A stretch of DNA of 64,000 nt from Rhodobacterales bacterium HKCCE3408 (lineage in GTDB: Bacteria; Pseudomonadota; Alphaproteobacteria; Rhodobacterales; Rhodobacteraceae), in NCBI GenBank assembly GCA_015689705.1, contig WVSN01000006.1, positions 62,001-126,000 of the forward strand, written 5' to 3'. The position numbers and the translations under genes are program-made. Under the pieces are notes generated by a model, which ran no database searches, was not told where the DNA came from, and worked only from the letters and a program-made list of their open reading frames with translations. This document shows, in pieces, positions 23,534-26,681 of the stretch; the first letter of the stretch is position 1; each line of letters begins with the position of its first letter.

Positions 23534-24145
23534 TCAAACGGCGGGATGGCTCCCGCCCTGCGCTTCACCGAAATCGCCCGTCGGAAGATCGCCGGCCCAG
23601 TCCGCCGGAAGCCTCCCCGCCCGGATGACCCGGTGGATCGACGACGCCTCCCAGTCCGTCGGCCGGTCTACAAGACCGTGCTTCACGGGGTTCATCAGGC
23701 AATAATTCATATGCGCGGCGACGTCGCGCGCATCGCGGCAATGGTGCTCCCAGAAACGGCGTTGCCAAACAGCACACTCGCGCCTGTCTCCTCGTAGACC
23801 GGGCTTCAGCCGGGCAAAGCGCCCGCTGCGAATCTCGGGCATCTCCGTTGGGAAATCCGGGCTGAAGCCCGGTCTGCAACGCCAGCCACGCGTGAACCGC
23901 GCTTTGATGCGCCCCCACCTTTGCGCGTAATTCAGGTCGTCCTCCGGCATACGCCACACAGCATGCATGTGGTCCGGCAGGACCGCCCATGCCAGCACAT
24001 CCACAGGCCGGCCGCGAAGCGTCATGCGCGCCGCGTCCCGCAAGAGATCGATATGATCGACCAGCACGGTCGATCCCCGCTCCGCCAGGCAGACCGTAAG
24101 GAAGACCGGCGTATCCGGGCGGGTCAGACGTCGATACCGCGGCAT
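23534..24145 (-). CDS. REP-associated tyrosine transposase (RAYT, Y1_Tnp family)
   Basis: A 203-residue HUH-type single-strand transposase. Seen: catalytic HxH in VLPDHMHAVW (His59, His61) and the nucleophile-region HMNYCLMNPVKHGLV. RAYTs recognise REP palindromes and are single-copy, domesticated relatives of IS200/IS605 enzymes. Between TRGW and CAVWQRRFWEHH lies an unusually long stretch (RPGFSPDFPTEMPEIRSGRF and on), encoded by DNA that contains two REP-like palindromes in inverted order (separate entry). The frame stays open through it. Start ATG 24145 is a choice by homology; a TTG at 24166 is possible. Convergent with ettA. Confidence 0.85.
   Translation of the reverse strand: MPRYRRLTRPDTPVFLTVCLAERGSTVLVDHIDLLRDAARMTLRGRPVDVLAWAVLPDHMHAVWRMPEDDLNYAQRWGRIKARFTRGWRCRPGFSPDFPTEMPEIRSGRFARLKPGLRGDRRECAVWQRRFWEHHCRDARDVAAHMNYCLMNPVKHGLVDRPTDWEASSIHRVIRAGRLPADWAGDLPTGDFGEAQGGSHPAV
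23796..23875. repeat. REP-like inverted pair inside the RAYT gene
   Basis: AGACCGGGCTTCAGCC at 23796-23811 recurs as its exact reverse complement at 23860-23875, 48 bases apart. Each arm is itself near-palindromic around GGGCTTCAGCCC, the right arm extending to CCGGGCT-GA-AGCCCGG. Two REP units in opposite orientation form a BIME-like element. It is in frame with the RAYT coding sequence and encodes PGFSPDFP and RLKPGLRG. Confidence 0.75.
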
Positions 24146-24356
24146 CCCTAACCACTTGCCCGGCAATGGTTAACCAAGGGTGAACCAATACCGCGCGCGC
24201 GTCGAACCTCTTGCCAGATGCAACAAGCATCGTTATACGCCGCTTCGCTATCTCTCTCTATCGACCCACTGTCTCCCTCACCGGCTTCAGTTTCGATCTT
24301 GACTGACTGCCGGGCCGCTGCATTCCGCGAGCGGCGCAAAACCAGGAGACATCACG

Positions 24357-24563
24357 ATGGCCAAAGGCACCGTGAAATGGTTCAACGCCACCAAAGGCTT
24401 CGGCTTCATCCAGCCGGATGAGGGCGGCAAGGACGTGTTCGTTCACATCTCGGCCGTGGAACGCGCCGGGCTGACCGGCCTGAACGACGACCAGAAGGTC
24501 ACCTTCGACCTCGAGTCGGGCCGCGACGGCCGCCAGAGCGCGACCAACCTCGCTCTCGCCTGA
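24357..24563 (+). CDS. cspA: Cold-shock domain protein
   Basis: A 68-residue CspA-family single OB-fold protein: [18 protein letters not shown] with RNP1 (KGFGFI) and RNP2 (VFVHI), ending in [10 protein letters not shown]. Binds single-stranded RNA/DNA and melts secondary structure. ATG 24357 follows AGGAGACATCACG. About 190 bases of leader precede it (24146-24356, no gene seen), long enough for a structured 5' UTR. Followed by a strong hairpin and then by the tandem micro-ORFs on the same strand. The label cspA denotes family, not an E. coli orthologue. Confidence 0.95.
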
Positions 24564-24658: not shown

Positions 24659-24769
24659 ATGACTCGCCGCACTGAAAGGCCTATCGCCTCAGACCACCGC
24701 ATCGTCCGGCCCCTGCCGCGCCCCGGCCCTTCCGGCCCCCGCGCCTCCGGTTCGCCGAGATCGCGATGA
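24659..24769 (+). pseudogene. Possible decayed or frameshifted member of the micro-ORF family
   Basis: ATG 24659 with CCAGGATCG upstream opens a 36-codon arginine/proline-rich ORF (MTRRTERPIASDHR at its start) that lacks the DWA ending of its neighbours. In the +2 frame of the same DNA, a proline/arginine-rich stretch ends in RLRFAEIAM, which resembles the RFTDWAA ending of the three ORFs that follow. This fits a copy that lost its frame, but short GC-rich DNA produces such matches easily. Treated as uncertain. Confidence 0.3.
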
Positions 24770-24837
24770 TCCACCCCGCCCTTTGAACCCGATCGCTCCT
24801 GCCGCCGACCCATCAGGGTCAGACAGGAGAAATGACC

Positions 24838-24939
24838 ATGTCCCGCCCACCGAAAGCCCCCGCGATCCCCGAAGCGCCGATCCCCGGCTACCAGAACAAG
24901 CCGAAGACCTTCCGCTTCACCGACTGGGCCAGCATCTGA
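24838..24939 (+). CDS. Micro-protein 1 of the DWA-ending tandem family
   Basis: A 33-residue ORF that begins MSRPPKAPAIPEAPIPGYQ and ends KTFRFTDWASI. GGAG lies eight bases before ATG 24838 (the ATG at 24832 is too close to it). A 5-bp hairpin (GACCC-ATCA-GGGTC, 24807-24820) precedes the ribosome site. The body is proline-rich and basic; only the C-terminal seven or eight residues are shared with the two following ORFs. No known family recognised. Three successive ORFs with good ribosome sites and the same ending argue that it is translated. Confidence 0.6.
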   Translation: MSRPPKAPAIPEAPIPGYQNKPKTFRFTDWASI

Positions 24940-25031
24940 ATCCCACCATGTTATCCGATGACACCGGGCGGTTATTGCCCGGCAGCGCAGAGCGCACCGA
25001 TCCTCTTCCCGTGACCCGAGAGGAGGCCGCC

Positions 25032-25127
25032 ATGCGCCCCGACGACAAGACCGACACAAAGCCCGCCCCCAAGCCCGACCGGCCGCAGCCACAGCCCGTG
25101 CGCTACAGCGACTGGGCCGCGATCTGA
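25032..25127 (+). CDS. Micro-protein 2 of the DWA-ending tandem family
   Basis: A 31-residue ORF, MRPDDKTDTKPAPKPDRP then a proline/glutamine run, ending VRYSDWAAI. AGGAGG sits five bases before ATG 25032. A 6-bp hairpin (CCGGGC / GCCCGG, 24964-24982) precedes it. Charged and proline-rich with no signal or membrane segment. A longer frame running in from 24783 is open but its first part overlaps micro-protein 1 in another frame and has no ribosome site, so I take the short form. Confidence 0.6.
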   Translation: MRPDDKTDTKPAPKPDRPQPQPVRYSDWAAI

Positions 25128-25228
25128 GGAAGCACACGCGCGCTCACAAGGCGCGGAGATCTCTGACACATCGCGCCCGCCCGCGCCTCTCCGCCCCCAT
25201 CTCGGGGCCATCAGACAGGAGACGCGCC

Positions 25229-25312
25229 ATGCCCCAGGGTCCGAAAACCCCGCATCAGGACCGCCGCCCCCGGCCGAAGCCCGTCCGCTTCACCGACTGG
25301 GCGGCGCTGTGA
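25229..25312 (+). CDS. Micro-protein 3 of the DWA-ending tandem family
   Basis: A 27-residue ORF, MPQGPKTPHQDRRPRPKP then VRFTDWAAL. AGGAG is seven bases before ATG 25229, within TCAGACAGGAGA, the same 12 bases found before micro-protein 1. Its TGA overlaps the GTG start of the following membrane protein gene (GTGA), a classical translational-coupling arrangement and the strongest sign that this tiny ORF is read. Function unknown. Confidence 0.65.
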   Translation: MPQGPKTPHQDRRPRPKPVRFTDWAAL

Positions 25313-25686
25313 TCCGCGCTCTCATCGCCGGCCTCGCGGCCGCGCTGATCGTGCCGGTCGCGGCCTATCTCGGCCTCGGCCAGGCGCTCGGCGCACATCC
25401 GTTCTGGGACGTCCAGACCGCGTGGATCGGCGCGGCGATCGGGCTTGTCGCGGGGCTTGTCTTCGCCCGTCTGCCGGGAAAAGCCGTTCTGCCCGCCTTT
25501 GCGCTACTGGCGCTCGGCGCATGGGGCGCCGCCGCCTGGGGCAAAGCCCGCTTCGCCGCCAGCTTCGCCGACGACCGCTTCGCGGGTCAGATCTGGTATG
25601 TCGGCTTCATTCTCGCGGCCGCCGCCGCGGCTGCGTGCCTCGTCTCGGCCGCCCTGCGGCTCAGCTTTCCTCGGCGCGCATCGTGA
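25309..25686 (+). CDS. Small integral membrane protein, function unknown
   Basis: A 125-residue protein with four probable membrane segments: LIAGLAAALIVPVAAYLGLG, WIGAAIGLVAGLVFARL, AVLPAFALLALGAWGAAAW and VGFILAAAAAAACLVSAALR. Starts at GTG 25309, overlapping the stop of micro-protein 3. No conserved polar motif is obvious. Position suggests it is expressed with the micro-proteins. The last 26 bases overlap the convergent lipoprotein gene. Confidence 0.6.
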   Translation: MIRALIAGLAAALIVPVAAYLGLGQALGAHPFWDVQTAWIGAAIGLVAGLVFARLPGKAVLPAFALLALGAWGAAAWGKARFAASFADDRFAGQIWYVGFILAAAAAAACLVSAALRLSFPRRAS

Positions 25687-26156: not shown

Positions 26157-26681
26157 ATGCGCATCGCAGCTCTTGCGGCCCTCGCCCTGGCCGTCGCCGC
26201 GCCCGCCCCCGCGCAGGACGCGGCGGAGATGGAATTCGCCATGGCGCTTTTCACCGGTATCAACCCGCAATCAATCTCCTTCAACCGCGAGGTCTGCGGC
26301 TACATCGTTCGCCATCCTGACGGCCGGATCGACTCCACAAAGCACTCCTGGGGCACCGAAGCGTCCTGCGCCAACCTGCCAGCGCCCGACGGCGTGGTCG
26401 TCCTGTCCTCGTGGCACACCCATGCCGCCTGGGGCCGGGGCTACGACGGCGAGGTCCCGTCGCTCATCGATGTCGAGGGCGACATGCGTTCGGGCATCAA
26501 CGGATGGGTCGGCACCCCGGGCGGCCGGCTGTGGTTCATCGACGGCCGCACTGGCCACCTGCGGCAGGTCTGTGGCCGCGACTGCCTGCCCTCGGACCCG
26601 AACTTCTTCCCCGAGGAACACGGGCCGGTAGAGAAGGAATACTCGCTCGAGGAACTGCGCGCCCGCTTCGGCGAGGGCTGA
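26157..26681 (+). CDS. Secreted DUF4329 protein with JAMM-like metalloprotease motif
   Basis: A 174-residue protein with a signal peptide (1-20, AALAALALAVAAPAPAQ). The core matches DUF4329, a JAB/MPN-fold family best known from Rhs-type toxins: Glu45 in REVCGYIV, HTH (His87, His89) and SxxD (Ser102, Asp105), i.e. the E...HxH...SxxD zinc set of JAMM peptidases looks intact. Here it is a stand-alone periplasmic or secreted protein without an Rhs shell or an obvious immunity gene. AGGAGGGAGG precedes ATG 26157. Confidence 0.72.
   Translation: MRIAALAALALAVAAPAPAQDAAEMEFAMALFTGINPQSISFNREVCGYIVRHPDGRIDSTKHSWGTEASCANLPAPDGVVVLSSWHTHAAWGRGYDGEVPSLIDVEGDMRSGINGWVGTPGGRLWFIDGRTGHLRQVCGRDCLPSDPNFFPEEHGPVEKEYSLEELRARFGEG

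Follow-up and report, generated by a model that had tools for sequence, protein, structure and literature searches.

Three consecutive short genes on the forward strand of the window (the whole 64,000-nucleotide stretch of DNA that was analysed) encode members of an apparently undescribed family of proline-rich microproteins that share a near-invariant tail at the free C-terminus. The family is restricted to Rhodobacteraceae in the sampled genomes, where no fewer than a quarter of the genera sampled in this major bacterial family have it, apparently unannotated, with several copies in some genomes. The explanation we favour, with a probability of about one-half, is that these proteins act by docking, wherein the free C-terminal tail would bind one conserved cytoplasmic partner and the variable body would serve as its spacer. 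The relevant features of the window are as follows.

24357..24563, + strand: cspA-type cold-shock gene, upstream of gene 1; sub-threshold Rfam cspA match
24838..24939, + strand: microprotein gene 1, 33 aa, MSRPPKAPAIPEAPIPGYQNKPKTFRFTDWASI; tail FRFTDWASI; GGAG at 24826-24829; tail PSSM 41.7 bits
24891..24939, + strand: conserved tail segment of gene 1, copy 1 of the 49-nt direct repeat
25032..25127, + strand: microprotein gene 2, 31 aa, MRPDDKTDTKPAPKPDRPQPQPVRYSDWAAI; tail VRYSDWAAI; GAGAGGAGG upstream; tail PSSM 35.8 bits
25079..25127, + strand: conserved tail segment of gene 2, copy 2 of the 49-nt direct repeat and its reference copy
25229..25312, + strand: microprotein gene 3, 27 aa, MPQGPKTPHQDRRPRPKPVRFTDWAAL; tail VRFTDWAAL; AGACAGGAG upstream; tail PSSM 34.1 bits
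25264..25312, + strand: conserved tail segment of gene 3, copy 3 of the 49-nt direct repeat
25309..25686, + strand: ORF of a 125-aa membrane protein, overlapping gene 3; no Pfam match

All three reading frames are intact and each is preceded by an SD-like GGAG or GAGG sequence. The start at 24838 is preferred for gene 1 because the ATG at 24832 lies too near the GGAG. The TGA of gene 3 overlaps the GTG of the 125-aa membrane protein ORF (GTGA), and the three genes lie downstream of cspA. A first-pass annotation of this DNA had described the same ORFs, tails, ribosome sites, overlap and position relative to cspA, and in all of these it proved accurate. The 49-nt tail segments show 69–78% identity to the reference copy and are spaced by 188 and 185 nt. 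When both strands of the 64 kb were scored with a tail PSSM built with this genus left out, the next best site reached −2.3, which places the window tails 36 bits clear of it. Between cspA and gene 1 (24659-24790), CGGTTCGCCGAGATCGCGATGATC reads RFAEIAMI beside a proline-rich frame and might be a frameshifted relic copy; this is a weak case that we do not claim, because its tail score is only the 20th in the window.

The strict tail DNA pattern occurs at four sites in this genome and at none in the reversed control. The fourth copy, which lies outside the window, is MPVTTTKTPKGAKEQKDRPAPVRFTDWASI. It precedes a TfoX_C-domain gene by 16 nt, and ndk comes next after that gene, on the opposite strand. 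This second locus is absent from the first-pass annotation, as is a likeness between the RFxDW portion of the tail and the motif of SDHAF4/DUF1674 proteins that is taken up below.

Genome searches by pattern uncovered many further homologues. With a TGA stop codon, the strict tail pattern matches 29 of 298 Rhodobacteraceae genomes (one match in the reversed control). With TAA or TAG it matches 8 of 296, a search that is weak when taken alone because its reversed control gave five matches; all eight matches are nevertheless the ends of short, SD-led ORFs with the composition of the family. A relaxed pattern covering the tail core finds 81 sites in 65 of 239 Rhodobacteraceae genomes and none in the reversed control, and a scan of named genomes yielded at least 117 stretches. 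Among the matches listed, the titles name Rhodobacteraceae or Roseobacteraceae genera (Roseovarius, Jannaschia, Pararhodobacter, Gemmobacter, Rhodovulum, Roseicyclus, Frigidibacter, Salipiger and others), except for a few metagenome-assembled genomes named only to order, class or phylum. In total, about 180 distinct family members were extracted. Where a genome has several paralogues, these carry the same tail on differing bodies, and tandem arrays of two or three are found in this genus and in Roseicyclus.

Outside the Rhodobacteraceae, the strict pattern has no match in about 380 alphaproteobacterial genomes. Four matches to relaxed or wide patterns in other alphaproteobacterial families were dismissed as chance, since none is a proline-rich short ORF. 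Viral contigs contain no match to the strict pattern, and a plasmid collection yielded a single member, on the 280-kb Salipiger plasmid NZ_CP014599.1 (L251:3001-3096), where the PLSDB table has no annotated gene beneath it.

Family members range from 20 to 74 aa in length, with a median of 33. They start with ATG, and an SD-like tetramer precedes 126 of 145, a count to be read with the fact that start choice favoured SD sites. The bodies vary freely around a common composition (P 24%, Q 12%, A 11%, R 10% and T 10%), with few hydrophobic residues and a median net charge of +3. Such low-complexity bodies are probably disordered, judging by their composition. AlphaFold applied to the family alignment gave an uninformative model, with no secondary structure (pTM 0.13).

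The tail has the form [FYI]-x-D-W-A-[ASM]-[IL]-COOH, often following PxP[FVYW]R. In the 145 strict-pattern members, D, W and A are invariant (as imposed by the search) and R, F/Y, T and I/L are nearly so (largely imposed as well), while the last residue but one can be A, S, M or L, and R is most often preceded by F, V, Y or W. TGA, TAA and TAG stop codons are all in use. A look at TfoX_C loci made no tail requirement, although a Trp near the end was demanded, and it recovered proteins ending in APRISDWASI, KPIIRDWAAI, APIFKDWASI and ATQITDWASI. These members vary in R and F and still keep xDWA[AS]I, and thus conservation of the tail is not an effect of ascertainment only.

The pattern of nucleotide substitution shows that it is protein that is conserved. 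With pS at 0.40 in both parts, the tail has a pN/pS of about 0.11 and the body one of 0.40. Ascertainment contributes to the tail value, since the search required those residues, but does not affect the body value. The corresponding pN values, from 40-odd independent pairs, are 0.043 and 0.161. Changes at codon positions 1, 2 and 3 number 19, 13 and 95 in the tail and 162, 154 and 316 in the body, and tail codons draw freely on synonymous alternatives. Together, the pN/pS values, the codon-position pattern and the free synonymous variation of the tail establish protein-coding conservation, and even the body is under weak but protein-level constraint.

Searches against known families returned nothing that would name these proteins. 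In Pfam, no real match was found for the three window proteins, the fourth copy (C34) or 55 members; the only family matched at E 0.1, CaM_bdg_C0 in two of the 55 members, was judged to be a chance match of composition. NCBIfam gave zero families for the 55 members and nothing for the window proteins and the fourth copy. DUF1127 small proteins resemble the family in being under about 50 aa, multi-copy and alphaproteobacterial, but differ in sequence and composition, and no match to their Pfam model was found among the 55 members at E 0.1. Rfam produced sub-threshold matches only, one being a cspA thermoregulator that lies outside the ORFs and the other a match to Chloroflexus-1 no better than chance (minus strand, 24908-25030, E 0.24). 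Consensus folding of the tail RNA gave nothing, with no covarying pair. Literature searches on the tail motif, on TfoX in Rhodobacter and on Roseobacter small proteins turned up nothing relevant. The first-pass annotation had proposed a family unlike any described, with a conserved free C-terminus on a variable body, and had named purifying selection as a supporting sign. The roughly 180 homologues that keep the tail bear this out, as do the pN/pS values in the predicted frame and the results of the database and literature searches. The outcomes that it said would refute the idea, an absence of homologous ORFs or a tail not kept among relatives, are clearly not what was observed.

Members of the family reside in several distinct genomic contexts. 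One group sits just ahead of TfoX_C, in loci where SerS or an Rrf2-type regulator often comes first and ndk last; another lies upstream of an L,D-transpeptidase. The context that holds the window is an EttA-cspA-(125-aa membrane protein)-DUF4329-gcvP region, and members that stand alone are flanked by divergent and convergent genes, as by alr and cytochrome c in Pararhodobacter. Apart from TfoX_C, DUF4329, the ABC-F protein and the DksA-like protein, the neighbours carry names that we assigned from their sequences. Homologues of the 125-aa membrane protein adjoin family members at seven of the examined loci, across several genera. Since cspA recurs as a neighbour in just one of these contexts, an earlier suggestion of a link to cspA and cold, taken as a special tie, is not supported.

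Three observations concern the neighbours themselves. The DUF4329 protein of the window (26157-26681, E 5.6e-38) has a probable signal peptide and is encoded downstream of family members in 17 loci. One complete genome (G051, locus L235) has a family member but no detected TfoX_C or DUF1674. At six loci in Pararhodobacter-type genomes, the called cytochrome c ORF ends about 22 nt inside the microprotein gene, convergent with it and antisense to the microprotein tail, which may be an effect of gene calling.

Genes of recurrent families lie downstream on the same strand within 300 nt in about 37 of 145 loci (TfoX_C in 24, the L,D-transpeptidase in 9 and the membrane protein in 4), and a convergent recurrent gene lies within 300 nt in at least 22 loci. 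The differing contexts and the convergent genes favour a product that acts in trans and make a general role as leader peptide unlikely.

The near-identity of the last seven residues across the family leads us to propose that the tail docks onto one conserved partner. According to this model, the tail would engage a single cytoplasmic protein through both its side chains and its carboxyl end, with the body functioning as a disposable spacer. Paralogues that reside in different transcription units could then deliver the same tail under different conditions, such that the same partner is occupied, recruited or regulated each time, assuming that these genes are expressed. A hydrophobic last residue, a variable residue before it and a fixed distance to the stop are compatible with a short linear ligand recognized by its carboxylate end, which had been one of the original suggestions for these proteins; a PDZ domain or a protease as the receptor would be conjecture. 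A second suggestion, that they are membrane anchors, is not supported, given a body with almost no hydrophobic residues. Since what is conserved is a free C-terminal stretch of seven to nine residues, a pull-down with a synthetic peptide could find the partner directly.

A more specific form of the docking model treats the tail as a shortened SDHAF4/DUF1674 motif that would bind SdhA or a related flavoprotein, and would thereby modulate complex II assembly or shield the free flavoprotein subunit. It is the PxPVRFxDW form of the tail that is like the PEPVR[FY]GDW motif of these proteins. SDHAF4/DUF1674 proteins (PF07896), which are complex II assembly factors, are likewise small and alphaproteobacterial, with a disordered N-terminal part and a conserved C-terminal region that includes PxP[VT]R[FY]xDW, and SDHAF4 is disordered until bound to SDHA (PMC10784507). 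A profile of the R-type members, which carry R[FY]xDW with x usually T rather than G, matches only two PDB sequences, RhR2 (GPEPVRFGDW) and human SDHAF4 (GPEPTRYGDW). The E-values of 0.25 and 0.52 mean that these matches are not evidence by themselves. An hhalign comparison of the R-type profile with 21 Rhodobacteraceae DUF1674 proteins gives a score of 24.8 (E 1.3e-5), where 300 column-shuffled controls reach at most 16.2. Many members lack the R, however, and for these the likeness to DUF1674 is weak (score 16.3, where 150 shuffled controls peak at 15.3). A profile of these non-R members matched OmpX and one other protein in the PDB, both by chance.

Other differences separate the two families. 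The PF07896 profile matches none of the 55 members at E 0.1, nor the three window proteins and the fourth copy at E 1. SDHAF4/DUF1674 proteins are about 51-78 aa long, occur as one canonical copy per genome, and have GGRxGPEP before the motif and EKKGxxxDF after it, with an essential Asp-Phe end. The microproteins stop three residues after the Trp, are multi-copy, and lack the terminal Asp-Phe and, as a rule, the GPEP glutamate. Structures show that two glutamates (E84 and E92) and the terminal Asp-Phe (D107 and F108) matter for the binding of SDHAF4 to SDHA (PMC10784507), and these residues are missing from the microprotein family, which for lack of the Asp-Phe end and generally of the glutamates is not a member of SDHAF4. 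Furthermore, 58 of 61 genomes, the present one among them, separately encode a canonical DUF1674 protein. The family may nonetheless share a similar short surface contact with SDHAF4, to judge by the motif. We consider it unlikely that the tail is a cut-down SDHAF4 motif acting on SdhA or a relative, and no likelier that Rhodobacteraceae use a multi-copy set of disordered spacers with SDHAF4-like tails to tune how a flavoprotein (complex II or a relative) matures or works as conditions change. We know of no such layer of respiratory control in other bacteria. If the likeness were functional, it would bear on the control of complex II assembly in alphaproteobacteria, the relatives of mitochondria.

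Conservation close to the stop codon of a short ORF also calls to mind arrest leaders of the TnaC/SecM type, very short ORFs that each control one particular downstream gene in cis. On this alternative, the last codons would stall or terminate slowly and thus control the downstream gene. In its favour, conservation reaches right up to the stop, as it does in arrest peptides; TfoX_C is the gene within 300 nt downstream at the 24 loci noted above; and in the window the ORF after gene 3 begins inside it. TGA is also somewhat commoner than expected from neighbouring genes (37 of 45 in the strict searches versus 63%), yet all three stop codons occur. Unlike those of TnaC/SecM leaders, however, the downstream genes of this family differ among groups or, as at the 22 or more loci mentioned, are convergent, and a conserved regulated gene directly downstream is not a family-wide rule. 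The searches for conserved RNA structure were negative, and the body is constrained as protein. A regulatory leader is thus an improbable account of the family, and a cis role is a possibility only for sub-groups such as those with a recurrent same-strand gene within 300 nt.

It is also improbable, though conceivable by analogy, that the tail is a degron or an allosteric ligand of a cytoplasmic AAA+ protease in the fashion of LarA and Lon. LarA is a small alphaproteobacterial protein with a transferable C-terminal stretch of five residues that binds Lon and activates it (PMC10665427). The family resembles this Caulobacter protein in being small and alphaproteobacterial and in the likely importance of the last residues of a free C-terminus over the body, and such a role would be in keeping with a disordered body that ends in a free, hydrophobic C-terminus. 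The LarA tail, however, ends in histidine (PMC10665427), whereas that of the family ends in I or L with an invariant DWA, and LarA is an 89-aa, demonstrated heat-shock protein.

The notion that the ORFs arose by chance, or from a DNA or RNA repeat that happens to be open, is strongly disfavoured: the three copies in the window are indeed a DNA repeat, but the changes are biased to third positions with pN/pS well below 1 even in the body, most members have an SD sequence and ATG, the count against reversed controls is 81 to 0, tail codons vary synonymously, and neither an Rfam family above cut-off nor covariation was found.

In the DNA around the window genes, scans for sigma-70 promoters and terminators were empty, and k-mer enrichment upstream of family members gave no convincing common promoter motif. 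On the reverse strand, 23534-24166 contains a gene without a Pfam match that, in our own reading, resembles REP-associated tyrosine transposases; its homologues adjoin several family members elsewhere. A palindrome-like repeat, GGCTTCAGCC/GGCTGAAGCC, is located inside this transposase-like gene at about 23800-23890.
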